Below are positions 9,406-34,373 of a stretch of 40,105 nt of DNA, piece by piece. Under the pieces are notes generated by a model that searched no databases, was not told where the DNA came from, and worked only from the letters and a program-made list of their open reading frames with translations. The position numbers and the translations under genes were made by a program. Every line of letters begins with the position of its first letter. The first letter of the stretch is position 1. Origin of the DNA: Acidimicrobiaceae bacterium. GTDB taxonomy: Bacteria > Actinomycetota > Acidimicrobiia > Acidimicrobiales > Ilumatobacteraceae. The stretch is from the NCBI GenBank assembly GCA_002698945.1, contig NZZV01000058.1, positions 1-40,105 of the forward strand, written 5' to 3'.

Positions 9406-9494
9406 GGTCGGTTTGATGTCAGACCAGAACCGACCGGGACTGCCTGGGGTCACCGAACGCCGGGTGGTCGGTTCTGGTCTGACATCAACCGACC
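9406..9494. repeat. Nested palindromic element, copy A
   Basis: The left arm is 9406-9435 and the right arm 9466-9494. They are reverse complements except for one extra T. The arms start with GGTCGGTT and end with AACCGACC, so each arm is also a small palindrome around the core GATGTCAGACC. The loop is about 30 bases. It lies in the shared upstream region of two divergent genes. Confidence 0.93.
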
Positions 9495-9604
9495 GGTGCA
9501 ACGCGGCGACACCCTCGCCGTATGGTGACGTGCACACCCACTCGAGCTCATCGACGTCGGCGCCAGGGTCGCTCTCCAGCCTCAGACTGCGAAGGAGTAC
9601 CATT

Positions 9605-9991
9605 GTGGCACTGACCGAATCACAGCGGATCGAGCTGTACGAGTTCGTGAAGCAATCCTCGCTCGGCAAAGCCGGAGCCGACATCGTCATGAACGCCATT
9701 CCCACCATCGACTGGAACGACCTGGCGACCAGAGACGATCTCGCGCTGCTGCGGAGTGAACTGCGCGGTGAAATGGGGGAGCTGCGGAGTGAACTGCGTG
9801 GCGAGATCGGGGAGCTGCGGAGCGAACTCCGCAGCGAGATGACCGGCCTCCGGGGCGACTTCCAGCTCGAGATGATGCAGCTCGAGAACCGACTGCAGCG
9901 TTCGATCGTCACCTGGATCCTCGCCGCGCAGGGGCTCACGCTCGCAGCGATCAGCGTCCTGGTCACGACGCTTGCCTTCGTCCTCTCGTAG
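9605..9991 (+). CDS. Small coiled-coil protein with C-terminal membrane helix
   Basis: 128 residues. The GTG start is supported by AAGGAG at 9592-9597, seven bases upstream. After an N-terminal segment (LTESQRIELYEFVKQSSLGK), residues ~45-85 are a regular coiled coil of 11-residue repeats such as ELRSELRGEMG, then LQLENRLQRS. A single membrane helix (TWILAAQGLTLAAISVLVTT) ends the protein. The repeats are nearly identical in DNA (GGGGAGCTGCGGAGTGAACTG and variants), implying duplication. It resembles the short DUF1640-type coiled-coil/TM proteins; that name is a suggestion only. It probably sits in the cytoplasmic membrane with the coiled coil exposed and forms oligomers. No link to neighbours is evident beyond its proximity to recQ. 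Confidence 0.8.
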   Translation: MALTESQRIELYEFVKQSSLGKAGADIVMNAIPTIDWNDLATRDDLALLRSELRGEMGELRSELRGEIGELRSELRSEMTGLRGDFQLEMMQLENRLQRSIVTWILAAQGLTLAAISVLVTTLAFVLS

Positions 9992-9996
9992 CGAGT

Positions 9997-10089
9997 GTCG
10001 GTTGATGTCGGTTGAGGTCAGACCCGATCCGACCGTCCAGCGTCGGTGATCACCGTGAACTCGTCGGATGGGGTCTGACCTCAACCGAC
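9997..10089. repeat. Nested palindromic element, copy B
   Basis: The left arm is 10007-10033 and the right arm 10063-10089, reverse complements with one mismatch. The core is GAGGTCAGACCC rather than GATGTCAGACCA. A partial extra GTCGGTTGAT (9997-10006) precedes the left arm. The loop holds a perfect palindrome CGGTGATCACCG. It lies between the coiled-coil gene and recQ. Confidence 0.9.
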
Positions 10090-10128
10090 TGGTCCATCCC
10101 TGCGACACCCCTCTGGCATGCTCGACCC

Positions 10129-12216
10129 ATGGCCGGCGACGATCCACTGCTCGATGCGCTCCGGAAGCTGACCGGACGCGCCGACGCTTCGTTCCGCGAC
10201 GGGCAGCGGGAGGCGATTAGTGCGCTCGTCGACGATCGGTCGCGAGTCCTCGTCGTCCAGCGCACGGGGTGGGGCAAGAGCGCCGTTTACTTCCTCACCA
10301 CCCGCCTGCTGCGCGAGCAGGGGTTCGGACCCACACTCCTGATCTCGCCGCTGCTCGCGCTGATGCGCAACCAGATCGAGGCCGCCACCCGGCTCGGGCT
10401 GCGCTGCGAGACGATCAACAGCGCCTCGGCCACCACGGTCCACGAACTCGAGCGCAGGTTGCACGATGACGACGTCGACCTGATCCTCATCTCGCCCGAA
10501 CGACTCGCCAATCCCCAGTTCGCCGACAAGATCATGCCGCTCGTCGGCGAACGACCCGGGCTGATCGTGATCGACGAGGTGCACTGCATCTCCGACTGGG
10601 GGCACGACTTCCGCCCCGACTACCGGCGCATCGGGCGTCTGCTCGACAAGTTGGCCGGCACCTCGGTGCCGATCCTCGGTTGCACCGCCACCGCCAACGA
10701 CCGCGTCGTCGCCGACGTCGCCGTACAACTCGGCGCCGAACTCACCACATTCCGCGGGCCGCTGCGCCGCGACGGCCTCGCCCTCAGCGCCCACGCCCTC
10801 GACCGACCCGCGGAGCGTCTCGCCTGGCTCGCCGAGACCGTGCCCACCCTCGAGGGGTCGGGCATCATCTACTGCCTCACCGTCCGCGACGTCGACAACG
10901 TGACCGATTGGCTGCGGTCACAGGGCCTCGACGTCGAGGCGTACCACGGTGGGCTCCCCAACGAGGAGCGGCTCGCGGCGGAGGGCAAGCTGCAACGCAA
11001 CGAGATCAAGGCGCTCGTCGCCACCACCGCGCTCGGCATGGGCTACGACAAACCCGACCTCGGCTTCGTCGTCCACTTCCAGTCACCCGGGTCGCCCGTC
11101 GCCTACTACCAGCAGGTCGGACGCGCCGGCCGGGCACTCGACCGCAGCGACGGGATCCTGCTGCGCGGGCTCGAAGACGTCGCGATCCAGGACTACTTCA
11201 TCGAGAACGCGTTCGCCGCCGAGCATCTCGTCAACGATCTGGTCGCCGCCTACGACCGCTTCGACGAACCCGCCTCGCTCATCCGCGCCCAGCAGTACGT
11301 CAACGTCAGCATCGGCCGGCTCGAAATGGTCGCCAAGCAGCTCGACGTCGAAGGCGTGCTGGAGCGCGTCGAGGGATCGAAGTACGTGCGCACGTCCGAA
11401 CCGTGGGCATACCCGGCCGAGCGCATCAACGCGGTCACCGCCGCCCGCCGCCGCGAGCAGCAGTCGATGCTCGACTACTTCCACACCGACGGGTGCCGGA
11501 TGCGTCACATCGCCGACCTGCTCGACGACCCCGACGCCACCGACTGCGGCATCTGCGACAACTGCACCGGCGACAGGGCGAGCGGCAATGCCACCATCGA
11601 TCTGCCGACCGAACTCGTCGCCGAGGCCGAGCGGTTCTTGCGGAAGCGACCGATCGAACTCACGACCAAGAAGCAGGTCTACGACCCGGCGACCGGCAGC
11701 CGTCGCAACTTCCCGAACGCGGAGCGGGCGGAAGACGGCCGCGTGCTCGCCATCTGGGGCGATGCCGGGTGGGGCCAACTCGTCCGCCAGGGCAAGCTCG
11801 ACGACGGCGCGTTCGACGAGCGCCTGGTCGACGCCTTCGTCGAGATGGTGGAGGAGTGGGCGCCCGACCCCGCACCGAGCTGGGTCACCTGTGTGCCGTC
11901 GCTGCGATATCCGAAGCTCGTTCCCGACTTCGCCGCCGCCGTCGCAGCCCGACTCGGGCTGCCGTTCGAAACGGTGGTCGCCAAGGTCGAGGAGCGACCG
12001 CCCCAGTTCGAGCAGCAGAACAGTGTCCACCAGCAACTCAACATCGAGGGTGCGTTCGCGGTCGAGGGGACGGTGCCTGGCGGCGCGGTGTTGCTCGTCG
12101 ACGACATCGTCGACTCCAGCTGGACGATGACCGACATCGCCCGCCGCCTCCGTCGCGCCGGCTCCGGTCCCGTGCTGCCCGCCGCCCTCGCCTCGTCCTC
12201 CAAACGTGAGTCCTGA
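10129..12216 (+). CDS. recQ: RecQ-family ATP-dependent DNA helicase with phosphoribosyltransferase-like C-terminus
   Basis: 695 residues from the ATG at 10129. The helicase core has Walker A QRTGWGKSAVYF (~44-55), the DEAH-box variant DEVH (~149-152) in VIDEVHCISDWGHDFRPDYR, motif III GCTATAN, and motif VI QQVGRAGRALDR. The RecQ zinc site is visible as Cys-x16-Cys-x2-Cys-x2-Cys (CRMRH then CGICDNC, ~456-478). Beyond the usual RecQ core the C-terminus has a PRTase-like fold motif, VLLVDDIVDSSWTMTDIA (~653-670), resembling a PRPP-binding loop. RecQ unwinds 3'-5' in recombination and repair. The extra domain's role is unknown. Palindromic element B lies just upstream. Confidence 0.93.
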   Translation: MAGDDPLLDALRKLTGRADASFRDGQREAISALVDDRSRVLVVQRTGWGKSAVYFLTTRLLREQGFGPTLLISPLLALMRNQIEAATRLGLRCETINSASATTVHELERRLHDDDVDLILISPERLANPQFADKIMPLVGERPGLIVIDEVHCISDWGHDFRPDYRRIGRLLDKLAGTSVPILGCTATANDRVVADVAVQLGAELTTFRGPLRRDGLALSAHALDRPAERLAWLAETVPTLEGSGIIYCLTVRDVDNVTDWLRSQGLDVEAYHGGLPNEERLAAEGKLQRNEIKALVATTALGMGYDKPDLGFVVHFQSPGSPVAYYQQVGRAGRALDRSDGILLRGLEDVAIQDYFIENAFAAEHLVNDLVAAYDRFDEPASLIRAQQYVNVSIGRLEMVAKQLDVEGVLERVEGSKYVRTSEPWAYPAERINAVTAARRREQQSMLDYFHTDGCRMRHIADLLDDPDATDCGICDNCTGDRASGNATIDLPTELVAEAERFLRKRPIELTTKKQVYDPATGSRRNFPNAERAEDGRVLAIWGDAGWGQLVRQGKLDDGAFDERLVDAFVEMVEEWAPDPAPSWVTCVPSLRYPKLVPDFAAAVAARLGLPFETVVAKVEERPPQFEQQNSVHQQLNIEGAFAVEGTVPGGAVLLVDDIVDSSWTMTDIARRLRRAGSGPVLPAALASSSKRES

Positions 12217-12330
12217 AGACGCCTCAGGCCGACGTCAAGTCTCGGCGAATCCGGGTCAACTCTTCCGCGGGCCGCACCGGGCTGATCTAGCGTTCGCTCT
12301 CCGGCGGGCTGAGCATCGAGGAGTTCTTCC

Positions 12331-14022
12331 ATGGTTACTCACACCCGCCGAGCGTGGGTTCGCTACGCACTCGTGCCGGCCGTCGTCGCCGCCGCCGTCG
12401 TGGCCGCCGTCGCCCCCGCACAGGCCGGCAAGGGCGACAACAACGGTCGTGGCAAGGACCGGGCGCCCGAGGTCGACCTGCAGATCCTCGCGATCAACGA
12501 CTTCCACGGCAACATCGCCAGCACGTCGAGCAGCTTCGGTGGTGTCGGCCGTGCCGACTACCTGGCCGCCAACATCGCAGCCACCGAGGCGGCCGCTCCC
12601 GGTGCGTCGATCTTCGTGTCGGCCGGCGACCTGATCGGCGCCTCGCCGCTGATCTCGGCGCTGTTCCACGACGAGCCCACCATCGAGGCGATGAACGAGA
12701 TCGGACTCGACATCAACGCCGTCGGCAACCACGAGTTCGACGAGGGCAAGGACGAACTGCTCCGCATGGCGTACGGCGGTTCACACCCCGACGGTGATCT
12801 CGACGGTGACGGCTTCGCCGGCGCCGAGTTCGAGTTCCTCGCCGCCAACGTCGTCGACGACGCGACGGGTCGGACCATCTTCGCCCCGTACACGATCGAG
12901 AACTACAGCGGTGTCCGGGTCGCCTTCATCGGCATGACGCTCGAGGGGACGCCGTCGATCGTCACGCCGTCCGGCGTCGCCGGGCTGACGTTCCAGGACG
13001 AGATCGACACGGTCAACGCCCTGGTGCCCGACTTGCGGCGCAGGAACATCGAGGCGATCGTCGTACTCCTGCACGAGGGCGGCGCATCCGACGGTGGTCA
13101 GAACGACTGCGGCACCGGACTCACGGGCCCGATCGCCGACATCACCCGCGGTCTCGACGACGCCGTCGACCTCGTGATCGCCGGTCACACCAACGACGAG
13201 TTCGTGTGCGAGATCGACGGCAAGTGGGTCACCATGGCCGACAACGCCGGCCGTCTGTACACCGACATCGACGTCAAGCTGAACCGTGTCACCAAGGACA
13301 TGCGGGTCGTCGCGATCAACAACCTGCCGAACTCGCAGCGCGACGTGACGCCCGACCCGGTGCTGACCGCGTTGATCGACAAGTACGACGACCTGTCCGC
13401 GCCGCTCGCCAATGCCGTGGTGGGCACGATCACCGCCGACATCTCGCGATCGGCCAACGCCGCCGGCGAGTCCGCGTTGGGCGACGTGATCGCCGACGCC
13501 CAGTTGGCAGCCACGGCTCCGGCCGGCTTCGGTGACGCCGTCGTCGCGTTCATGAACCCGGGCGGCATCAGGAGCGACCTGGTGTACGCGGCGTCAGGCG
13601 CCGAAGCCGACGGTGAGGTGACCTACGGGGAAGCGTTCACGGTCCAGCCGTTCGGCAACAGCCTGGTCACCATGACGTTGACCGGTACCCAGATCGACTC
13701 CCTGCTCGAACAGCAATTCGAGGTATCGCGCGTCCTGCAGGTGTCCGACGGCTTCACCTACGAGTGGAGCGTCGGCGCCCCGGTCGGAGCGAAGGTCGAC
13801 ATCGCATCGATCGAGCTGAACGGCGCCCCGATCGACCCGGACGGCTCCTACCGGGTGACGGTGAACAGTTTCCTCGCCGACGGCGGTGACGATTTCTCGG
13901 TCCTGGTGCAGGGCACCGACCGCCTCGGTGGTGACGTCGACCTCGACGCCTTCACCGACTACCTCGGCGCCAACTCCCCGGTGGCGCCGGGACCGATGGA
14001 CCGGATCGTCCAGATCCCCTGA
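12331..14022 (+). CDS. Secreted bifunctional metallophosphatase / 5'-nucleotidase
   Basis: 563 residues. GAGGAG at 12318-12323 sits seven bases before the ATG. A signal peptide (RRAWVRYALVPAVVAAAVVAAVAPAQA) is followed by a calcineurin-like metal site: AINDFHGN, SAGDLIGASPL, VGNHEFDEG, VVLLHEGG and IAGHTND, in the usual order. The C-terminal 5'-nucleotidase domain has ALGDVIADAQL, FMNPGGIRSDL and VNSFLADGGDDF. It hydrolyses extracellular nucleotides or related phosphoesters to release phosphate and nucleosides. There is no LPXTG or membrane tail, so it is probably secreted or loosely cell-associated. It is transcribed alone and followed by a strong hairpin. The assignment is secure; the exact substrate is not. 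Confidence 0.95.
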   Translation: MVTHTRRAWVRYALVPAVVAAAVVAAVAPAQAGKGDNNGRGKDRAPEVDLQILAINDFHGNIASTSSSFGGVGRADYLAANIAATEAAAPGASIFVSAGDLIGASPLISALFHDEPTIEAMNEIGLDINAVGNHEFDEGKDELLRMAYGGSHPDGDLDGDGFAGAEFEFLAANVVDDATGRTIFAPYTIENYSGVRVAFIGMTLEGTPSIVTPSGVAGLTFQDEIDTVNALVPDLRRRNIEAIVVLLHEGGASDGGQNDCGTGLTGPIADITRGLDDAVDLVIAGHTNDEFVCEIDGKWVTMADNAGRLYTDIDVKLNRVTKDMRVVAINNLPNSQRDVTPDPVLTALIDKYDDLSAPLANAVVGTITADISRSANAAGESALGDVIADAQLAATAPAGFGDAVVAFMNPGGIRSDLVYAASGAEADGEVTYGEAFTVQPFGNSLVTMTLTGTQIDSLLEQQFEVSRVLQVSDGFTYEWSVGAPVGAKVDIASIELNGAPIDPDGSYRVTVNSFLADGGDDFSVLVQGTDRLGGDVDLDAFTDYLGANSPVAPGPMDRIVQIP

Positions 14023-14042
14023 TCCGACGGTCAGGGCGCGCA

Positions 14043-14076
14043 CGGTCCCCTCCGCCGAACTCGACGGAGGGGACCG
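14043..14076. terminator. Strong hairpin between convergent genes
   Basis: CGGTCCCCTCCG (14043-14054) and CGGAGGGGACCG (14065-14076) form a perfect 12-bp stem with a 10-base loop, midway between the 5'-nucleotidase stop and the stop of the lipoprotein on the other strand. No T-tract follows, as is common in high-GC actinobacteria. It is a likely bidirectional terminator. Confidence 0.8.
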
Positions 14077-14109
14077 GTGGTGTTGGTCAGGCGTTGCTTC
14101 GACGATGCG

Positions 14110-14703
14110 TCACTCGACGACGAACTCGGCGACCATCCCGGCGGTGAAGTGAGGTGGGCCGCCAGCCACGCCCTCGGGCTTGCCGCCGCCGGCGGCTTCG
14201 ACCGCAGCGAGGTACTCATCCGGGTCGGCACCGATCGGGATGAAGCACATCATCACGTACCGTCCCGGTTCGGTGAGCGTGCCGTCGCCCACCGCCTGGA
14301 TCGCCTCCGGTGCCCCGGGCGGCTGCAGCAGCACCGTGACCGGCGCGCCGAGCGCCGCCTCGAGCTCCGCCGGGGGCAGCGCGAGCACCTCGTCGAGCGG
14401 CTGATCGGTGTCGAGCCGGAACGCGACCAGCTCGTGCAGTTCGACGCTCGACGTGTTCCGGAAGCCGAGCCGGGTTCCGGCGGGCACCGTGGCCGGCACG
14501 TTGTCGAACCCGTAGTCGACCCCGTCGATCATGACGGTCGTGTCGTGCTGGTCGTGATCGTCGTCGGGCGCGGTCGTCTCGACGGTCGTCTCGACGGGCG
14601 GGTCGTCGACGGGGTCGGCGCCCTCGGCGTCGTCGCCGCAGGCGGTGGCGAGGGTGGCGAGACAGGCGAGTGCCAGCACGCTGATGGTTCGTGAACGTTG
14701 CAT
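14110..14703 (-). CDS. Cupredoxin-like lipoprotein
   Basis: 197 residues from the ATG at 14703. The signal peptide ends in lipobox LATAC (Cys22), and an acidic, Thr/His-rich linker (DDDHDQHD) follows. The C-terminal ~120 residues look like a cupredoxin fold: GTRLGFRNTSSVELHELVAF, later GRYVMMCFIPIG, then PHFTAGMVAEFVV. This gives His, Cys, His and Met in the order of a type-1 copper site; that they bind copper is inference. It lies 56 bp downstream of an MBL-fold protein on the same strand, so it is probably in one operon. It would be anchored on the outer face of the cytoplasmic membrane. Alternative: a plain lipoprotein with a cupredoxin fold but no metal. Confidence 0.82.
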   Translation of the reverse strand: MQRSRTISVLALACLATLATACGDDAEGADPVDDPPVETTVETTAPDDDHDQHDTTVMIDGVDYGFDNVPATVPAGTRLGFRNTSSVELHELVAFRLDTDQPLDEVLALPPAELEAALGAPVTVLLQPPGAPEAIQAVGDGTLTEPGRYVMMCFIPIGADPDEYLAAVEAAGGGKPEGVAGGPPHFTAGMVAEFVVE

Positions 14704-14759
14704 GATGGGGTTCCTTGTCGTCGGAGCAGTGTTGGTGTTGGGGGAGTGAGCCGGCGCGT

Positions 14760-15644
14760 TCACGACGGCAGGGACAGCGACATCGACTCGATCGTGGCGA
14801 CGATCTGGTCGAGGGCGAGCTGGTCGGGCTGCGGCGGGACGGGCAGGGACGGCACCCGCCGCAACATCTCGAAGGCGTGGTCGATCTGGCTGGCGCCGAT
14901 CGTCGGGCCGTGGCACGTGGCGATCGCCCGCAACGTCAACCTCTCGATCACGGCACACGCGTCCGCGAAGCGGTGCTCGTCGAGCAACGAGACCCACGGG
15001 CTGTTCCACGCCTGGAAGGTCTGGAAGCCGCCGGCCCACGCTTCCGGGTCGAGCTCGTCGACGAAGGCCGTCGGGCCAGGCACCGGCGTGGCGTAGCAGT
15101 CCGACGCCCAGTAGACGCCGGTGGTCGGGTCGTACAGGCCACGGGTCGTCGGTGAGTCGTAGAGCGGCGGGCGGATCGCCGCCAGGGTGCGGTCGCCGAC
15201 CTCCAACGTCTCGCCGTCGTTCACCCAGCGCCAGCGAGTGGGCGGTACGTCGAGGCGGTCGACCGAAACCCGGTCGCACAGGAACCAGCTGGCGACGAGC
15301 GTCGCGTTCGGGCAGGCGTCCATCACCTCGTGCACGTTCCCGTAGTGGTCGACGTCGTCGTGGCTGATGAACACCCAGCGCACGTCCTCCGGCTCGACGA
15401 GACCGAACAGGTCGTCGAGGTAGGCCGCACGATTGGTCGGCGCGCCGGTGTCGACGACGACGGGTTCGGCGCCTCGGATCAGCATCGAGTTCATGTGTAC
15501 GGCGCCGGGTGCGCCCGGGGGAGCGAACGTGTCATGGATCACGAACGTCTCGGGCGCGATCTCGATCGGCGCCAATCGGTCGGGTCGCGGCGGCGCTGCA
15601 CCGTCGGCGGACGGGTGGATGTTTCGGTCATCGGTGAGTGTCAT
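14760..15644 (-). CDS. MBL-fold protein, flavodiiron/ODP-like
   Basis: 294 residues from the ATG at 15644. A metallo-beta-lactamase fold is shown by VVDTGAPTN, the metal motif ISHDDVDHYGN, WASDCY and the late His in ATCHGPTIG. The usual HxHxDH is HDDVDH here, so the second His is Asp. That resembles the HxExDH of flavodiiron/ODP diiron domains rather than zinc hydrolases. There is no flavodoxin domain, which argues for a stand-alone oxygen- or NO-interacting ODP-type protein. It lies upstream of a cupredoxin-like lipoprotein with 56 bp between, in the same direction. Diiron binding is inference; membership of the MBL superfamily is clear. Confidence 0.85.
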   Translation of the reverse strand: MTLTDDRNIHPSADGAAPPRPDRLAPIEIAPETFVIHDTFAPPGAPGAVHMNSMLIRGAEPVVVDTGAPTNRAAYLDDLFGLVEPEDVRWVFISHDDVDHYGNVHEVMDACPNATLVASWFLCDRVSVDRLDVPPTRWRWVNDGETLEVGDRTLAAIRPPLYDSPTTRGLYDPTTGVYWASDCYATPVPGPTAFVDELDPEAWAGGFQTFQAWNSPWVSLLDEHRFADACAVIERLTLRAIATCHGPTIGASQIDHAFEMLRRVPSLPVPPQPDQLALDQIVATIESMSLSLPS

Positions 15645-15802
15645 GGCGCCATCGTCCGCTCGGCGAGGCCGCGCCACCATCCCGCATCGCCACGGACTTC
15701 GGCGCCCACACGGTCGGGTGGCGGCGACCCCGAGACCCCGGGATCGAGACCCCCCAGAAAATTGGGATGGCGCACTCACGTTCGGAGGATCATGATGTCG
15801 AC

Positions 15803-16945
15803 ATGAGCAGAGCTCTGATGGCTGAGCGCGTCCGGAGAGACGTCGAGGTGGTGGCGACCGCCGGGCTCGATCTGCCGACGTTCCTGTCCGAGATCGACGA
15901 GTCGATCAATCGCTTCTTGCGTCCGATCGCTACCTGCATCGCCACGATCGATCCGACGACGTCGCTGCTGACCAGCACTTACAAGTTCGGCGACCTCTAC
16001 GGCCGCGACGACCACGATCTCGAGTGGGGTCTGATCGAGTACGGCGGCGTCGAACCGACCTCGTTCCTCGACGTCGCCGCCACCCCGAGCAAGGCGCTCG
16101 GCATGCACATCACGACCGGCGGCGACCTGGCCCGTTCACCCCGCATGGGCGACTTCATCGAGCCGTACTACGGATACGGCGACGAGCTGCGCCTGATCGC
16201 GACGGTGGAGGGTCGCGTGTGGGGAGCGCTCGCGTTCTTCCGTGACCCCGACGACGACCCCTTCGACGAGGCCGACGTCGAGTTCGCGTCGACGTTGTCG
16301 TCGGTGATGGCGAACGGCTTCCGGTCCGGTCTCCTGAGTCGGGTCGCCACCCAACCCCACCGTCACGTCGACCACGGCCCGGCCGTGATCATCGTCGACG
16401 CCACCGACAAGATGAGCCAGATCAGCGTCGGCGCCGAGGAACGACTCCGGCAGGTCATGCTGAGCGACCACTGTTCCGACCCGATCGGCACGATCGCTGC
16501 GCTGGTGGCGAGTGCGCGGCGCTTCGCTCAGGGTACGTCGTCGGTCCTGCCGCGTGGTCGACTCCGACTGCACGACGGGAGTTGGGTCGTGCTCCAGGCC
16601 TCACCGATGGCGGCCCGCGACGGCGTCACCGGCGACGTCGTCATCACGATCGAGGACGCCCGCCCACCCGAGATCATCCCGCTCGTCGTCGAGGCGTTCG
16701 GCCTCACCGCACGCGAACGCGACGTGACCCAGCTCGTCCTCCAAGGGGTCGAGACCAAGGACATCGCCGCCACGCTCCACCTGTCCGCGTACACGGTGCA
16801 GGACCACCTCAAGTCGATCTTCACCAAGGCGGGCGTCCGGAGTCGGCGCGAGCTGATGGGGAAGGTGTTCTTCGATCAGTACCAGCCCCGCTTCGGCCAG
16901 GAACTCGGCCCCGGCGGCTGGTACGACCTGGCACCGGCCGGCTGA
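15803..16945 (+). CDS. LuxR-family transcriptional regulator with GAF-like sensor domain
   Basis: 380 residues from the ATG at 15803; another in-frame ATG at 15767 is possible. GGAGGA at 15784-15789 is a candidate ribosome-binding site, though 13 bases away. Residues ~20-170 look like a GAF sensor (FLRPIATCIATIDPTTSLLT; VEGRVWGALAFFRD). A PAS-like middle segment follows (~190-290). The C-terminal LuxR helix-turn-helix is at about 300-365 (LTARERDVTQLVLQG, then DIAATLHLSAYTVQDHLKSI). It has no receiver domain, so it probably responds to a ligand or redox state directly. The divergent MBL/cupredoxin genes, 158 bp away, are the candidate targets by position only. Confidence 0.9.
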   Translation: MSRALMAERVRRDVEVVATAGLDLPTFLSEIDESINRFLRPIATCIATIDPTTSLLTSTYKFGDLYGRDDHDLEWGLIEYGGVEPTSFLDVAATPSKALGMHITTGGDLARSPRMGDFIEPYYGYGDELRLIATVEGRVWGALAFFRDPDDDPFDEADVEFASTLSSVMANGFRSGLLSRVATQPHRHVDHGPAVIIVDATDKMSQISVGAEERLRQVMLSDHCSDPIGTIAALVASARRFAQGTSSVLPRGRLRLHDGSWVVLQASPMAARDGVTGDVVITIEDARPPEIIPLVVEAFGLTARERDVTQLVLQGVETKDIAATLHLSAYTVQDHLKSIFTKAGVRSRRELMGKVFFDQYQPRFGQELGPGGWYDLAPAG

Positions 16946-16970
16946 CGCTGCGACGGCGGTCGCGGCGTCA
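16943..16970. terminator. Hairpin at convergent gene junction, containing a stop codon
   Basis: TGACGCTGCGAC (16943-16954) pairs with GTCGCGGCGTCA (16959-16970) around the loop GGCG, with one T-G wobble. The first TGA is the stop of the LuxR regulator, and the stop of the convergent YjbR gene begins two bases after the stem. Likely bidirectional terminator. Confidence 0.78.
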
Positions 16971-16971
16971 G

Positions 16972-17382
16972 CTACGGGACCGGGTCGGGTGGGCGGTCGA
17001 GCTGGGCGACGAGCTTCTTCGGGGCGCGGGTGCAGTAGCTCTCGGTGACGAGTTCGGCGACCTCGCTCCAGTCCGTGTCGTCGTCGATCACGACACCCAT
17101 GGCGTCGCGACCCCAGCCGAGGAACAGGAACGGGTGACCGGTGCGCTTCAGCACCTCCAACTCCTCCCCCTCCGACCGGAACGTGAGCACGAGCTTGCGC
17201 GGTTCGCCCTCGTCGTCGATCGCCAGCAGCTGAGCGAAGGTCTGTTTTCGCACGCGCCAGCGCACGCCGACCCAGGCCCGCTCCTCGTACGCCTCCGGCA
17301 AGGCGTCCGCGATGGCCCGCACCCGCGCCTCGGCTGCTTCCGGCACATCGTCCACGTACGACCGCCCCGACGGCTTCGCCAT
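16972..17382 (-). CDS. MmcQ/YjbR family protein
   Basis: 136 residues from the ATG at 17382. It shows the typical features of the small YjbR-type fold: an N-terminal helix with ALPEAYEERAW, then WRVRKQTFAQLLAIDD and a C-terminal segment IDDDTDWSEVAELVTESYCT with APKKLVAQLD at the end. The family is widespread, has a CyaY-like fold and has been suggested to bind DNA; no enzymatic role is established. It is transcribed in the same direction as the Excalibur-like gene upstream, but palindromic element C separates them. Confidence 0.87.
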   Translation of the reverse strand: MAKPSGRSYVDDVPEAAEARVRAIADALPEAYEERAWVGVRWRVRKQTFAQLLAIDDEGEPRKLVLTFRSEGEELEVLKRTGHPFLFLGWGRDAMGVVIDDDTDWSEVAELVTESYCTRAPKKLVAQLDRPPDPVP

Positions 17383-17399
17383 GGCGCCAGCGTACGCCC

Positions 17400-17526
17400 G
17401 TCGGTTGATGTCAGACCACGACCGACGTCACCATCGGTTGGGTCGGTTGATGTCAGACCACGACCGACATCACCATCGGTTTGGTGCTGCAGCCAACTGG
17501 TCGGTCGTGGTCTGACATCAACCGAC
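17400..17526. repeat. Nested palindromic element, copy C (left arm duplicated)
   Basis: Left arms at 17400-17426 and 17442-17468 are identical, and the right arm at 17500-17526 is their exact reverse complement. The spacing of 42 bases and the similar inter-arm DNA show a tandem duplication of the left half. The loop includes CACCATCGGTTTGGTG, itself able to pair. It lies between the YjbR gene start and the end of the Excalibur-like gene. Confidence 0.95.
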
Positions 17527-17573
17527 GGGGCGCGGGTGCAGGAGCTCGCCAGCGCATGTGGCCCGAGGCGGGC

Positions 17574-18260
17574 TCAGTCGCAGCCGATGCCGTCGCCGTC
17601 TCGATCGAGGCCGTAGATGTCGGAACCGACCACGTAGACGGGACCGGATGTGTACGCCGGACCGTTCCCGCCGCCGCCGGCGCAGTCGACATCTGACGCA
17701 ATGGGAACGCAGACACCCTCGTAGTTGGGATCACAGCTCGATTGCGGGATGAGCGGTTGGATCGCGGGAGCGGGAGTCGGTGGTGGTGGCGGCGGTGGCG
17801 GTGGCGGTGAGGTCGTCGTCGGCGGCGACGTGGGGGGAACGGTCGTCGTCACCGGGAGTGACGAGGTGGTCGTCGGCGTCGGCGGTGTCACCGTCGTGGT
17901 CGGCAGGGCGATCACCGCAACCGTCACCGGAGGTCCGACCGGCACGACCGGCAGGACCGGGAGCGTGGTTCGGGCGTCGATGGTCGTGGAGGGATCGATC
18001 ACGGAAGTTGGCGCCGATCGGTGTGAGGAGATCTGTTCGTCGCCGCCCGGCTCCGTGGCGGGCGACTCGATCGTGGCCCCCTCCTCGAGCGCGGCCGGCG
18101 ACCAGACAGACGAGCCGATCGCGAGCGCGACCAGACCCCCCGACATCCAACCCCACACCGGGACGCGTCGGTACGGACGCGACCACCAGCGCAGCGACGA
18201 TGCATCCGCCGCCACGGGAATGTGGCGAGCTTCGCCCACCTGGGGAGGATCCCAGCCCAT
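17574..18260 (-). CDS. Membrane-anchored Excalibur-like envelope protein with Pro/Thr linker
   Basis: 228 residues. The ATG at 18260 is preceded by AGGAGG with three bases between, a strong reason to prefer it over the upstream start. After ~35 hydrophilic residues comes one membrane helix (GWMSGGLVALAIGSSVW). A long Thr/Pro linker follows (many TTT and PPT units and a run of ten Pro). The C-terminal ~55 residues read SSCDPNYEGVCVPIASDVDC ... GLDRDGDGIGCD, the small Cys-rich, Asp-rich module of the Excalibur type, which is thought to bind calcium. Expected topology: cytoplasmic N-terminus, extended linker across the wall and an extracellular module. It is flanked on both sides by palindromic elements C and D in the same orientation. 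Confidence 0.85.
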   Translation of the reverse strand: MGWDPPQVGEARHIPVAADASSLRWWSRPYRRVPVWGWMSGGLVALAIGSSVWSPAALEEGATIESPATEPGGDEQISSHRSAPTSVIDPSTTIDARTTLPVLPVVPVGPPVTVAVIALPTTTVTPPTPTTTSSLPVTTTVPPTSPPTTTSPPPPPPPPPPTPAPAIQPLIPQSSCDPNYEGVCVPIASDVDCAGGGGNGPAYTSGPVYVVGSDIYGLDRDGDGIGCD

Positions 18261-18353
18261 GTTCCTCCTGTCGACGCCGGAGCGAGTGCCGGCGCCTGCG
18301 GCCATTCGATCACATCCGTCGGTGTGTTCGACATGTTCTCGGAGGCATGTCGA

Positions 18354-18437
18354 GTCGGTTGATGTCAGACCACGACCGACGTCACCATCGGTTGGTGCCG
18401 CAGTCGACCGGTCGGTCGTGGTCTGACATCAACCGAC
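18354..18437. repeat. Nested palindromic element, copy D
   Basis: The left arm is 18354-18380 and the right arm 18411-18437, exact reverse complements and identical to the arms of copy C. The loop also resembles that of C (CACCATCGGTTGGTG). The last bases overlap the 3' end of the VOC gene, whose TGA stop lies inside the right arm. Confidence 0.95.
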
Positions 18438-19145
18438 GGTGAACCGCACTCCGCTGATCGTCGTGTCGACGCGGTGTGCCGCGTCCGGTCGCGCAGCGGC
18501 GAGGACCACCTGGTCGATGCCTTCGCGCTCGTCCGCGTCTGCGGGCACGAGGTGCACGATCGCGTCGTCGGTCTCGATCAGCCATGAGCCGTCAGCGCCG
18601 CCCACCGGGCCCCGCAGGAGCAGCGCACCCCAGCGGCGGGCGGTCGCCTCCGGGTCGTGACACCGCACGGTCGCCGCGGCGATCCCGCGTACGACGTCGG
18701 TGCGCACGGCGGCGTGCCAATCGGGTCCGGCGGGATGCCACGCGTGCTGACCGTCCTGCTGATCGATCTCGACGAACGTGCCGCCGGTGTCGGCGGGATG
18801 CAGCTGCATGTTGCGGAACCCGTCGGCCGAGAAGTCGGCGACGATCCGCACGCCGTGTTCGTCGACCGCCGCCCGGTGCGCCGCGTGATCGTCGGTCTGG
18901 AAGATCAACATGTATCCGGCGTCGCCGCCCTGACGCGTGCGGAACCGATCGGCGGTCGTGCCGTCTTTCGTCGGTGCGATCACCTCGAGGAACTGGTCGC
19001 CGACCGGGATCACCGCGTTCACCAGATCGAGCTGTTCGATCTCTGGGTCGTGGTAGCCGACCTCCAGCCCGAACTCGTCGTGCAACCGGGCGGTCACGGC
19101 GTCGCGGTCGGCGGCGACCACGGCGATCTGGCGGAGCCGCAACAT
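18429..19145 (-). CDS. VOC-superfamily (glyoxalase-like) protein
   Basis: 238 residues from the ATG at 19145. It opens MLRLRQIAVVAADRDAVTAR, a typical first beta strand of a VOC module. Two modules are visible: ~1-115 (FGLEVGYHDP, QFLEVIAP, GYMLIFQTDD) and ~120-238 (FVEIDQQDG, AATVRCHDPEATARRWGALL). Candidate metal ligands are His and Glu in these segments, but their positions cannot be fixed without alignment. The start overlaps the stop of the upstream enoyl-CoA hydratase by one base, implying coupling and a possible role with an acyl-CoA or related substrate. The C-terminus (RFTVG, stop) runs into palindromic element D. Confidence 0.82.
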   Translation of the reverse strand: MLRLRQIAVVAADRDAVTARLHDEFGLEVGYHDPEIEQLDLVNAVIPVGDQFLEVIAPTKDGTTADRFRTRQGGDAGYMLIFQTDDHAAHRAAVDEHGVRIVADFSADGFRNMQLHPADTGGTFVEIDQQDGQHAWHPAGPDWHAAVRTDVVRGIAAATVRCHDPEATARRWGALLLRGPVGGADGSWLIETDDAIVHLVPADADEREGIDQVVLAAARPDAAHRVDTTISGVRFTVG

Positions 19146-26578: not shown

Positions 26579-26584
26579 CGCGGC

Positions 26585-26815: not shown

Positions 26816-26831
26816 TGGCTGGTGACCACTG

Positions 26832-27176: not shown

Positions 27177-27206
27177 GTGTTCTGACGGGGTGAACTGGCG
27201 CAGGCG

Positions 27207-27863: not shown

Positions 27864-27879
27864 GAACACTGCGTACCAC

Positions 27880-27968: not shown

Positions 27969-28048
27969 GCCGGGGCGCCCACGCAATACCGACACACGCG
28001 CCATTACACTCCGGCACTTCACGATTGGGCTGACGTTAGGGAGGAACC

Positions 28049-29053: not shown

Positions 29054-29082
29054 GCGAGTCGGAACAACGTGAGGACGACGCG

Positions 29083-29967: not shown

Positions 29968-29977
29968 TGGAGCAACG

Positions 29978-30724
29978 ATGACGGCGAAGCTCGAGATCCG
30001 CGACGTGCACAAGTCGTACGGCGACAAGGTCGTGCTGGACGGCATGTCGTTCGACGTCGACGAGCACGAGGTCGTCTGCCTGATCGGGCCGTCCGGGTCC
30101 GGCAAGTCGACGCTGCTGCGGTGTATCGACCTGCTCGACCCGCTCGACGCCGGTTCGATCCGACTCGACGGGATCGACATCACCGCTCGCAACACCGACG
30201 CCAACGCCGTCCGTCGCCGGGTCGGCATCGTGTTCCAGTCGTACAACCTGTTCCCGCACCTGTCGGTGCTCGACAACTGCACCCTCGGCCCGAGGCGCGC
30301 CCTCGGGGTCGACCGCAAGTCCGCCGATGCGAAGGCACGTGAGCTGCTCGAACGGTTCGGACTCGGCGACAAGGTCGAGGAGTACCCGAACCGCATCTCC
30401 GGCGGCCAGAACCAGCGGGCTGCGATCGTGCGGGCGCTGATGGCCGACCCGGAGATCCTGCTGCTCGACGAGGTCACCTCCGCGCTCGACCCCGAGTTGG
30501 TCGGCGAGGTGCTCGGGGTGATCCGCGAATTGGCCGGACGCGGCATGACGATGCTGCTCGCGACCCACGAGATGGGTTTCGCCCGCGACGTCGCGGATCG
30601 GGTCTGTTTCCTTCACGAGGGCCGCGTCCTCGAAGACGCGCCGCCGAGCCAACTGTTCGGCTCCCCGCAACACGAACGCACCGCTCAGTTCCTTCGCCGC
30701 GTCCGAGACGCCGGCCGCATCTGA
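29978..30724 (+). CDS. Polar amino-acid ABC transporter ATPase
   Basis: 248 residues from the ATG at 29978. Walker A GPSGSGKST (near 36-44), Q-loop FQSYNLFPHLSVLDN, signature ISGGQNQRAAIVRALMADPE (Asn in place of the third Gln of the common GGQQQR), Walker B ILLLDEVTSALDPE and the switch His in LLATHEMGFARDVADRV. It powers uptake with the preceding permease and binding protein; the order binding protein-permease-ATPase is standard. The C-terminus (FGSPQHERTAQFLRRV) has the usual length, with no regulatory extension. Substrate is predicted as glutamate, glutamine or a related polar amino acid by family only. Confidence 0.95.
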   Translation: MTAKLEIRDVHKSYGDKVVLDGMSFDVDEHEVVCLIGPSGSGKSTLLRCIDLLDPLDAGSIRLDGIDITARNTDANAVRRRVGIVFQSYNLFPHLSVLDNCTLGPRRALGVDRKSADAKARELLERFGLGDKVEEYPNRISGGQNQRAAIVRALMADPEILLLDEVTSALDPELVGEVLGVIRELAGRGMTMLLATHEMGFARDVADRVCFLHEGRVLEDAPPSQLFGSPQHERTAQFLRRVRDAGRI

Positions 30725-30771
30725 AACGTCGGAGCGAGGTTGGCCTCGAACGATCCGGGTATGCCACGGGC

Positions 30772-31371
30772 ATGAATATCGGCATCGTGTACTACTCCAC
30801 CTACGGCACCACGTTCGCACTCGCCAGGGAACTGGCCGACGCCGTCGAAGCGGCGGGTACCGAGCCGCACCTTCGGCGAGTGCGCGAACTCATGCCGGAT
30901 GAGGCGATGGACGACAACGCCAAGGCCGCCGCGCAGGCGCAGGCCGACGTGGCGTACGCGGACGTCGATGAGCTGCCCTCGTTCGACGGTCTGCTCATCG
31001 GTTCGCCGACCCGCTTCGGCAATCGGGCCGCCCAGATGTCGCAGTTCCTGGATCAGACCGGGCCGCTCTGGCAGCAGGGTGCGCTCGCCGGTATGCCGGT
31101 GGGTTTCTTCACCGGCGCCGCAACCATGCACGGGGGTCACGAGTCGACCGTCTTGACGATGTCGACCTTCGCGTATCACCAGGGGATGGTGATCGTGCCG
31201 ATGGGCTACACGAGCGACGAGGTCGGGGAGACGTCCTCGGGTGGGGGCCCGTACGGACCGACCCATTACACCCCGTCCGACGGTTCGAAGACCTCGCTCA
31301 GCGACCACGAGATCGGCATCGCGCGCCACTACGCGACCAAGTTCGTCGACATCGCCCGACGCCTGAACTGA
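30772..31371 (+). CDS. wrbA: WrbA-type NAD(P)H:quinone oxidoreductase (flavodoxin-like)
   Basis: 199 residues from the ATG at 30772. The FMN-binding start is IGIVYYSTYGTTFALARELA. The middle has GLLIGSPTRFGNRAAQMSQF, then GMPVGFFTGAATMHGGHESTV and a loop GETSSGGGPYGPTHYTPSDG typical of WrbA. The length fits the family (about 200). It reduces quinones by two electrons using NAD(P)H, protecting against redox cycling. It is 48 bp downstream of the amino-acid importer operon and could be transcribed with it, although a functional link is not evident. Confidence 0.94.
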   Translation: MNIGIVYYSTYGTTFALARELADAVEAAGTEPHLRRVRELMPDEAMDDNAKAAAQAQADVAYADVDELPSFDGLLIGSPTRFGNRAAQMSQFLDQTGPLWQQGALAGMPVGFFTGAATMHGGHESTVLTMSTFAYHQGMVIVPMGYTSDEVGETSSGGGPYGPTHYTPSDGSKTSLSDHEIGIARHYATKFVDIARRLN

Positions 31372-31399
31372 GCCCGTGCCGGCGTCTACAGTCGCTGGC

Positions 31400-32554
31400 G
31401 TGCGCGTTGGCATCCTGACCCGTGAGTATCCGCCCGAGGTGTACGGAGGTGCCGGCGTGCACGTCGACTTCCTCGTGCGCGAACTCACGAAGCTGATCGA
31501 CGTCGACGTACACTGCATGGGCGAGCCGCGCGACGGTGCGACCGCCCACTCCGAACACGAACCGTTCCTCGCCGACGCCAACGCCGCGCTGCGCACGCTG
31601 GCGGCCGACCTGGCGATGGCCGACCAGACCGCCGACTGCGACCTCGTCCACTCCCACACGTGGTACGCCAACATGGGCGGCCACTGGGCGAAGCTGCTCC
31701 ACGACATCCCCCACGTCGTGACCTCGCACTCGCTCGAACCGCAACGCCCGTGGAAGGCAGAACAGCTGGGCGGCGGCTATCGGGTCAGCTCGTGGGCCGA
31801 ACGGACGGCGTACGAAGCCGCGGACGCGGTCATCGCCGTCAGCCACGGGTCGAGGCGCGACGTGATGGCGTCGTACCCGCAGCTCGACGAGACCAAGGTG
31901 CACGTGGTGCACAACGGGATCGACACCGACTTCTATCGGCCCGACCCCGACACCACCGTGCTCGAGCGACTGGGCGTCGACCTCGACCGACCGTTGGTCG
32001 TCTTCGTCGGTCGCATCACCCGCCAGAAGGGTGTGCCGCATCTGCTGCGAGCCGCGCTCCACCTCGACGAGTCGGCTCAGCTGGTGCTGCTGGCCGGTGC
32101 CGCCGACACGCCGGAACTCGCCGCCGAGACCGACGCCGCGATCGCCGACCTCCGGGCGTCGCGCGACGGCGTGTTCGTGGTGTCGGAGATGCTGTCGCGC
32201 GAGGAGGTGCGCCAGGTGCTGACCCACGGGACGGTGTTCGTGTGTCCGTCGGTGTACGAACCGCTCGGCATCGTGAACCTCGAGGCGATGGCGTGCGAGA
32301 CAGCGGTCGTCGCCAGCGACGTCGGCGGCATTCCCGAGGTCGTCGCCAACGGTGAGACGGGCACGCTCGTCCACTACGACGCCGACGACACGGAGGGCTT
32401 CGAGCGCAACCTCGCCGAGGCGATCGACGCGGTCGTACTCGACCCCGACCGCGCCCGCGAGATGGGGCTCGCCGGCCGCGAGCGAGCCGTCCGCGACTTC
32501 GGCTGGGACGCCGCCGCCCGCAAGACCGTCGACATCTACGAGTCGCTGCTCTGA
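31400..32554 (+). CDS. glgA: Glycosyltransferase family 4/GlgA-type glycogen synthase
   Basis: 384 residues when started at the GTG at 31400 (VRVGILTREYPPEVYGGAGV), which matches the usual start of the actinobacterial proteins; a GTG at 31376 would add eight residues. The N-domain has YGGAGVHVDFLVRELTKL and SHTWYANMGGHWAKLLHDIP. The C-domain has VVFVGRITRQKGVPHLLRA and the donor-binding SVYEPLGIVNLEAMACETAV, with the final DVGGIPEVVANGETG. It should transfer glucose from a nucleotide sugar to alpha-glucan or to glucose-1-phosphate, as in the mycobacterial GlgM enzyme. Its stop TGA shares bases with a palindromic element. Confidence 0.9.
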   Translation: MRVGILTREYPPEVYGGAGVHVDFLVRELTKLIDVDVHCMGEPRDGATAHSEHEPFLADANAALRTLAADLAMADQTADCDLVHSHTWYANMGGHWAKLLHDIPHVVTSHSLEPQRPWKAEQLGGGYRVSSWAERTAYEAADAVIAVSHGSRRDVMASYPQLDETKVHVVHNGIDTDFYRPDPDTTVLERLGVDLDRPLVVFVGRITRQKGVPHLLRAALHLDESAQLVLLAGAADTPELAAETDAAIADLRASRDGVFVVSEMLSREEVRQVLTHGTVFVCPSVYEPLGIVNLEAMACETAVVASDVGGIPEVVANGETGTLVHYDADDTEGFERNLAEAIDAVVLDPDRAREMGLAGRERAVRDFGWDAAARKTVDIYESLL

Positions 32555-32621
32555 CAGAAGCGGTCAGGCACCTTCTGTCCGCCGCGACACGACGGACAGA
32601 GGGTGCCTGACCCCTTCTGTC
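32553..32621. repeat. Nested palindromic element exactly filling a convergent gene junction
   Basis: Arms at 32553-32579 and 32595-32621 are reverse complements with two mismatches. Each arm starts with GACAGA and ends with TTCTGTC around the core GGTCAGGCACC / GGTGCCTGACC. The left arm begins inside the glgA stop codon, and the right arm ends one base before the stop codon of the opposite gene. Confidence 0.93.
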
Positions 32622-32622
32622 G

Positions 32623-33513
32623 TCAAGGCCTGCCGCCGACGGTTTGGATCTCGACCACTGGGTAGGTGACCGGCTCGCCGGTGATCGTCAGCGGGTCGAG
32701 CGGGAACGGACCGGCGGTGACCCAGCCGAAGCGGGCGAGGAAGAGTTGCGCGGTCCAGCTGCCGTTCCAGGTGGCGCCGAGGGTGACGAGGTGATCGCCG
32801 GTCTGCGTCGGTGTCCACGTGGCCGCGGCGCCGTCACCGTTGCCAGAGGGGTCGGGCTCGGTGCCGCAGCTGGTCGCGGTGCGGGTCTCGGTACCGCTCG
32901 GGCCGGTGATCGTCCAGACCAGTTCGCTGATCCCGACCTCGGCGCTCGCGACCGACCCGCTGGTGCGGGCCTCGACGTCGACCGTGCCGGGGTCGTCGCA
33001 CCAGAACCAGGTGTCGAGTTGGGTCACCCCGCCGATCCCGTCGAGCGGCGGGTTGACGCCGATCTCGAGTGACAGGATCTCCCGAGTCGCCAGATCGGTC
33101 TCGCCGGGAGGTTCCGGGAGAGCAGGCGGCTGGGGAGGATCCTCCCCCGGCCACTCGCAATACGTATAGATCGCCAACAACTCCCCCGTGTCCGTGTTCG
33201 TGACCTGCACCAACCACTGAGCGGCGTAGGTGATGATGATCTCATCCGCGGTCTCGTTCGTCCGTCGACAGGGCGGGTCTCCGGCAGGAATCGACGGGAT
33301 GTAGTCCCGACTCCAGACAATCGGACTCGCCGGGATCGCGGCGGTTGTGTTCGACCCGCCCGGCTGTTCTGTGTTTGTCCGCACAGGCTTCGGCGGCGGC
33401 TCGGTCTCTGCGAGACAAGCGACGCTGTTGCTCAAGTCGCAGGTCGTTGGCTCGGAGGGGTTCGAAACTGTGAGGGCCAGCAACACGGCCGAGTAGCCAA
33501 GCAGATCGGTCAC
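32623..33513 (-). CDS. Secreted protein of unknown function
   Basis: 296 residues from the GTG at 33513, where GGAGGG is five bases upstream and the stop of the previous gene is next to it; a longer frame exists but has no better start. The N-terminus (VTDLLGYSAVLLALTVSNPS) is a weak signal peptide. No membrane helix follows. The body is rich in Thr, Pro, Glu and Trp with several Cys (CDLSNSVAC, CRRTNETADE, YCEWPGED, FWCDDPG, TSCGTEP) that may form disulphides. A beta-rich Ig-like segment (VDVEARTSGSVASAEVGISE; WTPTQTGDHLVTLGATW) is near the C-terminus. No family recognised. It is coupled to the upstream lipoprotein, so the two exported proteins likely work together. Confidence 0.78.
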   Translation of the reverse strand: MTDLLGYSAVLLALTVSNPSEPTTCDLSNSVACLAETEPPPKPVRTNTEQPGGSNTTAAIPASPIVWSRDYIPSIPAGDPPCRRTNETADEIIITYAAQWLVQVTNTDTGELLAIYTYCEWPGEDPPQPPALPEPPGETDLATREILSLEIGVNPPLDGIGGVTQLDTWFWCDDPGTVDVEARTSGSVASAEVGISELVWTITGPSGTETRTATSCGTEPDPSGNGDGAAATWTPTQTGDHLVTLGATWNGSWTAQLFLARFGWVTAGPFPLDPLTITGEPVTYPVVEIQTVGGRP

Positions 33514-33514
33514 G

Positions 33515-34222
33515 CTATCCCTCCGTGGATGCATCGCTGGCGAGAACTCTCCAACCATCTGGTGTGTTCAGCAGGACGAGATCTAGCCGTTCAGGCGGAG
33601 CGTCCTCATCGCGAGTGAGCTGGAAGACGGTCTCGCCGGAACTGTCGACGATGCGAGCTTCACTGAGATCCTGAGGCTCCGTCGTCACCCGAACCTGATG
33701 CCAACGGGCCGCGTCAGGCAAGTCTGTGGCGACTTCGATCACTTCGGCCCTGGTCACCACTGGGTTGTCAAGGCCCACTACCCGCCAGTTCTCCTCCACG
33801 AGCCGCTGGACTTCCGTTCCGTGCAAGCTCTGGCACGAGTTCTCCCCTGCAACGCAGTACTCGCCGATGCGCCCAAGGTCTGGGTTCGCTCGTAGGTCGT
33901 TGAGTGTGCTGAGCAGCCCTTGCGTGATCTCGAGCCAGTTGGGGTCTCCGGGGTTGGTGGTGGGGGGTGGGGGTGTGGTCGTCGTGGCGGGTTGGGTGGG
34001 GATCGTCGCCTCGGTGGTCGAGGTCGTGCTGGTCGCTTCGGTCGTCGTCGGTGCCGCTGTCGTGCTCGTCGTGGCGGCGGCGGTGGTCTCGGGGGCGGCC
34101 GTGGTGGTGGTCGCCTCGGTCGTCGACGTGGCGTCTGCCTCGTCGTCGCCGGACGAGCAGGCACTCAGCAGCACCACAGCGCTGATGGTGGCGGTCAGGA
34201 TGCGTCGAGTGGTCGGCCGCAT
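33515..34222 (-). CDS. Exported Thr-rich lipoprotein
   Basis: 235 residues from the ATG at 34222. Signal with lipobox LLSAC (Cys22), then a Thr-dominated linker (about residues 30-90; many TTT, TTA and TTE units) that ends PPPPTTNPGD. The C-terminal ~130 residues form a domain with two Cys (YCVAGENSCQSLHGTEVQRL), then WHQVRVTTEPQDLSEARIVD. This looks like a small exported sensor or binding domain, but I do not recognise the family. Its stop is next to the start of the secreted protein, with a shared ribosome-binding site inside its end: a two-gene operon. Palindromic element E lies just upstream. Confidence 0.82.
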   Translation of the reverse strand: MRPTTRRILTATISAVVLLSACSSGDDEADATSTTEATTTTAAPETTAAATTSTTAAPTTTEATSTTSTTEATIPTQPATTTTPPPPTTNPGDPNWLEITQGLLSTLNDLRANPDLGRIGEYCVAGENSCQSLHGTEVQRLVEENWRVVGLDNPVVTRAEVIEVATDLPDAARWHQVRVTTEPQDLSEARIVDSSGETVFQLTRDEDAPPERLDLVLLNTPDGWRVLASDASTEG

Positions 34223-34278
34223 CCGTACAGCATGGCCGATCCGGCCGCCTCGTGCCACGGGGAGATGTCCCCAGGCCT

Positions 34279-34373
34279 GTCGGTCGATGTCAGACCACGA
34301 CCGACGACCTTCGCAGTGCTGCCAGATGGCTGGATGGTCGGTCGTGGTCTGACATCAACCGACATCAACCGAC
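34279..34373. repeat. Nested palindromic element, copy E
   Basis: The left arm is 34279-34305 and the right arm 34337-34363, followed by a second partial right-arm end ATCAACCGAC (34364-34373). Arms match copies C and D except for one base in the left arm. The loop has CCAGATGGCTGG, able to form its own stem. It lies between the start of the lipoprotein gene and the stop of the malic enzyme gene. Confidence 0.93.

Follow-up and report, generated by a model that had tools for sequence, protein, structure and literature searches.

Inverted palindrome doublets, probably REPIN-like, that bracket a Y1 transposase gene in an Ilumatobacter-like bacterium

How did one palindromic sequence come to lie at five junctions within 40 kb of bacterial DNA? 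The question arises from a stretch of 40,105 nucleotides of an Ilumatobacter-like bacterium (contig NZZV01000058.1 of assembly GCA_002698945.1, hereafter the window). An original prediction had described five copies of a nested palindrome (A to E) in it, all between genes, and had proposed a genome-wide family resembling repetitive extragenic palindromes (REPs) or miniature inverted-repeat transposable elements (MITEs), or else protein-binding sites. All five are where they had been placed; four fit a layout of 27 nt, spacer and 27 nt, and copy A carries one extra base. The first reading needs one correction: the unit is a doublet, that is, a 27-nt near-palindromic arm and its inverted copy, separated by a spacer whose length is fixed and whose sequence is free. 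We consider it highly likely that the doublets are non-autonomous elements similar to REPINs (REP doublets forming hairpins), spread by a Y1 HUH transposase of the REP-associated tyrosine transposase (RAYT) or terminal inverted repeat-associated tyrosine transposase (TIRYT) type. The comparisons below suggest a mobile family whose copies were very probably spread through the genome by a transposase that acts on single-stranded DNA and whose gene the same palindromes bracket.

The window lies on contig 80 of a draft genome (G000; 4.36 Mb, 82% complete), which we compared with two relatives of the same genus, G019 (one contig, 4.78 Mb, 99% complete) and the incomplete draft G112. In the window, GTCGGTYGATGTCAGACCACGACCGAC with at most three mismatches gave eight matches, against none in 100 dinucleotide shuffles, and GTCAGACC occurs 12 times where 2.98 occurrences are expected; Rfam gave no match in the window at its gathering score. 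Across G000, the arm pattern GTCAGACCNNNNCCGAC occurs 81 times on each strand and its reversed control not at all, which bears out a genome-wide family. A relaxed scan (fixed-length arm, up to three mismatches, stretches fetched around the exact G000 sites) returned 175 arms in 82 clusters, 71 of which hold one doublet of a left arm (+) and a right arm (-). Fifty-four clusters read +-, ten +--, four ++-, two ++++- and one ++--. The other 11 are single arms (seven -, four +), among them at least three chance hits in coding sequence and also copy A, tallied in this way because of the extra base in its left arm. A right arm before a left one was found in none of the 82 clusters of G000 and in one of the 48 of G019. 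Arms have a near-palindromic core, GGTCAGACC, with GTCAGAC as the core of this family (family 1), and are spaced about 57 bp from centre to centre. The spacer measures 28–32 nt in 69 of the 71 doublets and 2 and 43 nt in the other two. At some sites of this family and of a second one described below, arm plus spacer is amplified in tandem on one side, with a period of 54–59 (G000:C2:20617-20851, G019:C1:764772-764944, G019:C1:4355919-4356114).

The prediction that both arms change together holds throughout the family. Arms are exactly complementary in 49 of the 71 G000 doublets, with a mean of 0.48 mismatches against 3.04 when partners are shuffled. In 138 doublets (68 from G000, 49 from G019 and 21 from G112), 98.6% of cells pair between arms, compared with at most 89.0% in 500 shuffles, and 297 cells have changed on both sides, compared with at most 106 in shuffles, a count that ignores kinship among copies. 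Pairing within an arm reaches 87%, and a standard pair is formed in 26% by positions 9 and 19, where A and C are usual; the long hairpin is therefore kept more than the palindrome of each arm. Copies A to E each fold as a single hairpin with DNA parameters (z from -7.3 to -12.0; 0 of 200 shuffles equal), and two single arms folded alone gave weak values (z -1.25 and -1.07). The near-palindromic core and the fixed spacing would also suit operator sites of a DNA-binding regulator. However, in each copy the partner arms share their variants, a match that is not required of independent sites and for which the protein-binding alternative of the original prediction does not by itself account. In addition, the copies lie at the 3′ ends of genes and not at their starts, and arms are amplified in tandem on one side. 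We therefore give the operator explanation very little credence.

Spacers of 30 nt (n = 31 in G000) have a mean identity of 30%, and 10 of 4556 spacer comparisons in G000, made in both orientations, beat every shuffled one. Related spacers (score of at least 12) were found in 31 of the 9453 pairs of doublets, and in none after shuffling; they occur at distant sites and in both orientations. The arms of these 31 pairs show differences at 79 positions, and at 57 of these the change is alike in both arms: 7 of 14 in the 10 pairs whose spacers are most alike, 18 of 23 at scores of 14–17, and 32 of 42 at scores of 12–13. In unrelated pairs, 26,294 of 32,793 differences (80%) are alike in both arms because each doublet is symmetric. 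In young pairs, differences are thus often confined to one arm, and in older pairs both arms have them, which fits a symmetry that is restored over time. Template switching, selection or the loss of lopsided copies would each fit such a restoration, with no single one favoured. As the spacers look random, a derivation from target DNA was considered; it is unlikely, given that related spacers occur at distant sites and also inverted, and that an empty site (C151:52270, see below) has no spacer-like sequence by eye. Repeat-spacer units like those of CRISPR (clustered regularly interspaced short palindromic repeats) are ruled out, as the pairs are inverted and not direct.

A Y1 transposase gene had been expected near some copies. 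Indeed, the one Y1_Tnp match detected in G000 (E 5.5e-7, contig 46) lies between two family 1 copies; three arms (18291, 18336 and 18384) precede it and two (19286 and 19305) follow it. The likely start codon comes 38 nt after the end of one doublet, and towards its 3′ end the frame passes through the next doublet, which has a spacer of just 2 nt. In G112, a frame cut by the contig end matches the C-terminal piece of the G000 protein with 41% identity over 109 aa (E 8e-24) and likewise enters a family 1 doublet at the matching place; the DNA past that doublet is 87% identical in the two genomes. G112 also has an unbroken Y1 gene (L070) between two doublets of a second family. The spacers of these two are closely similar, and the arms differ between the doublets alike on both sides. 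Two families each bracket one Y1 gene. The family 2 doublet (CCAGATGGGGTCAGGCACC..) was found in G112 at two junctions, and its core pattern occurs 141 times in G112, 58 times in G019, 33 times in G000 and not at all in six other genomes of the genus, with a reversed control of 0. A third kind of repeat, GGGTCAGGTGCCAGAGGTGACGACTCGCC, forms runs of longer repeats on both sides of the Y1 gene of G019 (L065, G019:C1:4550610-4553930). A further Y1 gene of G112 (L050, on G112:C375) matches the Pfam Y1_Tnp (IS200-like) model far better, at E 5.8e-42, and probably encodes, judging by this match, an ordinary IS200-type transposase.

The wider sample comprised 150 genomes of the family, 10 of them in the same genus. 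A search for the HUH motif found frames in 26 of the 30 listed Y1 loci, which with the G000 gene makes 27; the motif was used to pick the frames, so its presence in 26 of 26 is no separate test. PF01797 scored above its cut-off in all 20 genomes with a match and in four of four intact relatives; the N-terminal piece from G000 reached 22.8 against 23, and the C-terminal piece gave no match. The class 2 motif Y---NP is present in 18 of the 27 proteins or pieces. No Pfam match to a C-terminal helix-turn-helix or DnaA-like domain was found up to E 10 in five Y1 proteins, and no sequence relative of the G112 Y1 protein in the PDB at E 0.1. In the 23 of 27 loci with at least 100 nt on both sides, flanking inverted repeats of at least 18 nt were found at 14, and 12 of these 14 contain YCAGR or its complement; the same test gave two loci with flanking repeats that lack this core. 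Of 2000 random intervals, 5 had such repeats and 1 had the YCAGR core. The palindrome GTTGTG-YCAGR-CACAAC brackets Y1 genes in G076, G088 and G101, where it occurs 91, 71 and 39 times; at several further Y1 loci, YCAGR sits in different stems. In G101, only 4 of the 39 listed sites have another site within 100 nt, so that doublets are not the rule there. This palindrome is absent from G000, G019, G112 and G012. It occurs 19 times in G038, a single-contig genome in which no Y1 gene was detected.

By published accounts (PMC3116915, PMC8266576, PMC8049555), single-stranded palindromes are what RAYT proteins work on, and these proteins are presumed to spread REPINs, for which spacer length and hairpin capacity are named as critical features (Bertels and Rainey 2011, PMC3116915; PMC8049555). 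As REPINs are described in the available text of PMC3116915 and PMC8049555, the doublets share with them inverted palindromes, a short and highly diverse spacer, an extragenic location, compensatory changes and a link to a RAYT gene. Here, two inverted palindromes form a long hairpin, the short and diverse spacer is constrained in length, and the many copies are dispersed and mainly extragenic. A cognate gene flanked by the repeat was found in G000, where it is broken, and in G112 for the second family, and not in G019. Unlike REPINs, the doublets have no GTAG-type tag and have long near-palindromic arms with a GTCAGAC core; their host is Ilumatobacter-like, and its transposase matches the RAYT model only distantly. 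Classical GTAG REPs and RAYTs (Nunvar et al. 2010, PMC2817692, as far as its available text goes) also combine a transposase gene with flanking, genome-dispersed inverted palindromes, but carry the GT[AG]G tag that is missing here, where the RAYT model was matched below its cut-off.

In TIRtrons with their TIRYT genes (Di Nocera et al. 2013, PMC3733652, in the available text), a Y1 gene lies between inverted repeats unrelated to GTAG REPs, as it does here. The motif of their terminal inverted repeats (TIRs), GGGGWSAS, fits GGGGTCAG of families 1 and 2, which was also found around L059 and L063. Some TIRs are likewise dispersed as dimers or clusters, whereas the main form here is a strict doublet with a 28–32 nt spacer. 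The main text of that report does not contain the word Actinobacteria. The available text of PMC6006769 assigns 20 of 26 TIRYTs to subclass 2.1 of TnpA_Y1, with flanking GGGG[AT][CG]A[CG] and the class 2 motif Y---NP, and credits Actinobacteridae with subclass 1.1 (IS200-type) Y1 genes only. Both features recur here, and the genes come close to this description, a likeness by description. Unlike those subclass 2.1 genes, near which that text reports no REP-like sequences, the similar genes here are bracketed by palindromes, mostly with a YCAGR core. The doublet design is that of REPINs, and the gene arrangement and GGGGTCAG are those of TIRYTs; the family thus appears, by its sequences, to be a new branch of a known kind of repeat. 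In open-access literature, with wider searches made by title, we found no REPIN or RAYT palindromes described for the Ilumatobacter lineage. With the genes bracketed here, REPIN-like biology would extend to Ilumatobacter and its relatives. At several such Y1 genes the flanking palindrome is also dispersed genome-wide, which offers a concrete substrate for work in vitro. Doublets of two families in three species are a natural system for asking how hairpin arms stay matched while the spacer drifts.

Are the positions of the doublets variable, as expected of mobile elements? The family 1 pattern is abundant in 3 of the 150 genomes, all of one genus (162 matches in G000, 88 in G019 and 51 in G112), and the other 147 have 0 to 4 matches, with 0 or 1 per strand for the reversed control. 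A scan of a named genome collection for whole doublets, a collection that may omit the window's own genome, returned 18 stretches, all from the draft Ilumatobacter sp. HKST-UBA13, with the same coordinates as G112. Two sets of orthologous junctions were compared, without the chance arm-like coding matches C151:48140, C73:3470 and C8:20658, which are among the 11 single-arm clusters. In the first, biased towards filled sites as the G019 and G112 loci were fetched for holding copies, 21 rows (20 G000 sites) are junctions filled in both genomes. Sixteen of these rows have whole doublets on both sides; their arm variants often differ, yet match within each doublet, and in 6 of the 16 the spacer score is in the top 5% of unrelated pairs. 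In the second set, of 11 junctions in G019 stretches chosen by map position, five hold family 1, two hold family 2 (one of them with half a family 1 arm as well), three are empty and one is rearranged. Copies are thus neither few nor identical at all orthologous junctions, and the presence and absence that had been predicted was found as empty and family-swapped sites. With many junctions filled in two species, much of the family may be old, or sites may be reused.

Individual junctions illustrate this variation. In G019, CCC TGA closes the gene at C151:52270; G000 has a doublet there, and the gene terminates at a TGA that this doublet supplies. At C130:32262, G019 has a family 2 doublet inside a truncated family 1 arm. 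Behind the window gene at 10129-12216, G019 has family 1, G112 both families and G000 none, and at the junction of copy A the G019 doublet stands at the matching place with different arms and a different spacer. The filled and empty pair at C151:52270 has no visible target duplication. Together with the hairpin, the strand-asymmetric arm and the bracketed Y1 gene, this gives an anatomy that fits the RAYT and REPIN scheme. Inverted, dispersed and mostly intergenic repeats could also be MITEs of an ordinary DDE insertion sequence, but this clearest filled and empty site without a visible duplication, and arms that bracket a Y1 gene, leave that explanation with almost no probability.

The positions of the doublets relative to genes bear on another alternative. 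They were counted with a crude, home-made codon-pair gene caller. In G000, 31 of the 71 doublets touch no called gene, 18 overlap one by 1–30 nt and 22 are crossed further by called open reading frames (ORFs). Doublets entered by more than 30 nt (22 of 71 in G000, 8 of 42 in G019 and 1 of 21 in G112) and those at contig edges (2, 0 and 2) were dropped from the counts. The claim that all copies lie between genes is true of the window, except for copy D, which enters the gene at 18429-19145(-) by 9 nt; genome-wide it is only partly settled. At tandem junctions, doublets lie at a median of 12 nt from the upstream stop and 81 nt from the next start in G000 (27 junctions, Wilcoxon p 0.0006), 12 and 65 nt in G019 (17, p 0.0045), and 10 and 30.5 nt in G112 (8, p 0.20). 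Convergent and divergent junctions number 15:5, 14:3 and 7:3 in these genomes, compared with 7:6 for the window's own gene calls. Where the crude calls allow, copies sit just behind stop codons.

Such a location would suit host elements at gene 3′ ends, that is, transcription stops or hairpins at mRNA 3′ ends whose pairing is selected, with a merely historical link to the transposase. The excess of convergent junctions in three species, the orthologous junctions often filled in two of them and the arm pairing kept while the sequence varies are all in line with it. However, no T-tract follows the arms of copies A to E, and a terminator scan of 9300-18500, restricted to loops of 3–8 nt, gave no site at copies A to D; an intrinsic terminator was rejected on these grounds. 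Furthermore, G019 is empty at three of the 11 map-chosen junctions, only 3 of the 10 genomes examined in the genus are rich in the arm pattern, and 27 closely similar bases at every locus are more than a stop signal would require. We regard host elements as an improbable explanation.

Several observations weigh against spread by the bracketed transposase. The Y1 gene of G000 is interrupted by an internal TAG (amber) codon and has YIHQID in place of Y---NP, and, as its sequence reads, is probably broken and dead unless the assembly errs. G019 has both families, with 88 family 1 arms, and yet its sole detected Y1 gene has no family 1 arm nearby; in the incomplete drafts G000 and G112, missing genes mean little. 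At 9 of the 23 Y1 loci there is no flanking repeat of at least 18 nt. The NCBIfam RAYT model NF047646 was matched below its 80-bit cut-off, at 25.6–56.4 bits, and was the only family match for seven of eight queries, the C-terminal piece of the G000 protein giving none. A GTAG or GTGG foot lies within 6 nt of only 2 of 142 doublet ends in G000. Five of the 11 map-chosen junctions are filled by family 1 in G019 too. The closest spacer pairs in G000 are local neighbours, with no fresh long-range copies seen, and neither excision nor new insertion was observed.

On balance, we favour the transposase-spread, REPIN-like elements, for which the following course can be proposed. Two inverted 27-nt near-palindromes 28–32 nt apart, with a spacer whose sequence would hardly matter, would form a long hairpin in single-stranded DNA, for example at a replication fork. 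A Y1 HUH transposase of the RAYT/TIRYT class (one gene in the G000 draft) would recognise the hairpin with its YCAGR core, nick it and place copies preferentially just behind stop codons. We infer this recognition, cleavage and copying, as well as whatever keeps the arms matched. Given the amber codon and the altered Y motif, spread may have stopped in G000. A broader combination is tentative and, in our estimate, rather unlikely: hairpins with a YCAGR core would be the general substrate of a large RAYT branch so far without REP partners, and the doublets of this genus would re-establish their symmetry themselves. In that case a template switch in the hairpin would later copy a change from one arm into the other, and such copying would preserve the match between arms at a fixed site, with the spacer free to drift.

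In the window, the doublets, which are given without a strand, are as follows. Copy A (9407..9493) has arms at 9407-9434, the 28-nt left arm with the extra base (GTCGGTTTGATG), and at 9467-9493, with a spacer of 32 nt; it is 88% identical over 91 nt to one copy in G112. The caller put a minus-strand ORF over 9604-9991, read here as a plus-strand gene. Copy B (10007..10089) has arms at 10007-10033 and 10063-10089 and a spacer of 29 nt. Copy C (17442..17526; arms 17442-17468 and 17500-17526, spacer 31 nt) is preceded in tandem, at a period of 42, by an extra left arm on the plus strand (17400..17426). Copy D (18354..18437) has arms at 18354-18380 and 18411-18437 and a spacer of 30 nt related to that of copy C; its right arm supplies the stop codon of the gene that it overlaps. 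Between C and D lies an ORF on the minus strand (17574..18305). The stretch from C through this ORF to D is missing from G112, where both neighbours are 30 nt apart. Copy E (34279..34363; arms 34279-34305 and 34337-34363, spacer 31 nt) lies 25 nt behind the stop codon of the gene at 34389-35792(-).

A 10-mer directly outside one arm was seen in several copies, in the window as an extra GTCGGTTGAT unit at copy B (9997-10006) and an extra, GTCGGTTGAT-like ATCAACCGAC unit at copy E (34364-34373), and also at L009 and L013; it looks as if left by a partial second insertion or by slippage. Two further repeats lie elsewhere in the window. Tandem 9-base units (GGACCTGCC/GGACCTTCG) occupy 3496-3680, where one frame would encode collagen-like Gly-Pro-X repeats. 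A gap between called genes, at 38177-38490, holds tandem repeats of about 140 nt that are imperfect and contain inverted repeats (GCCGCCGAG/CTCGGCGG).

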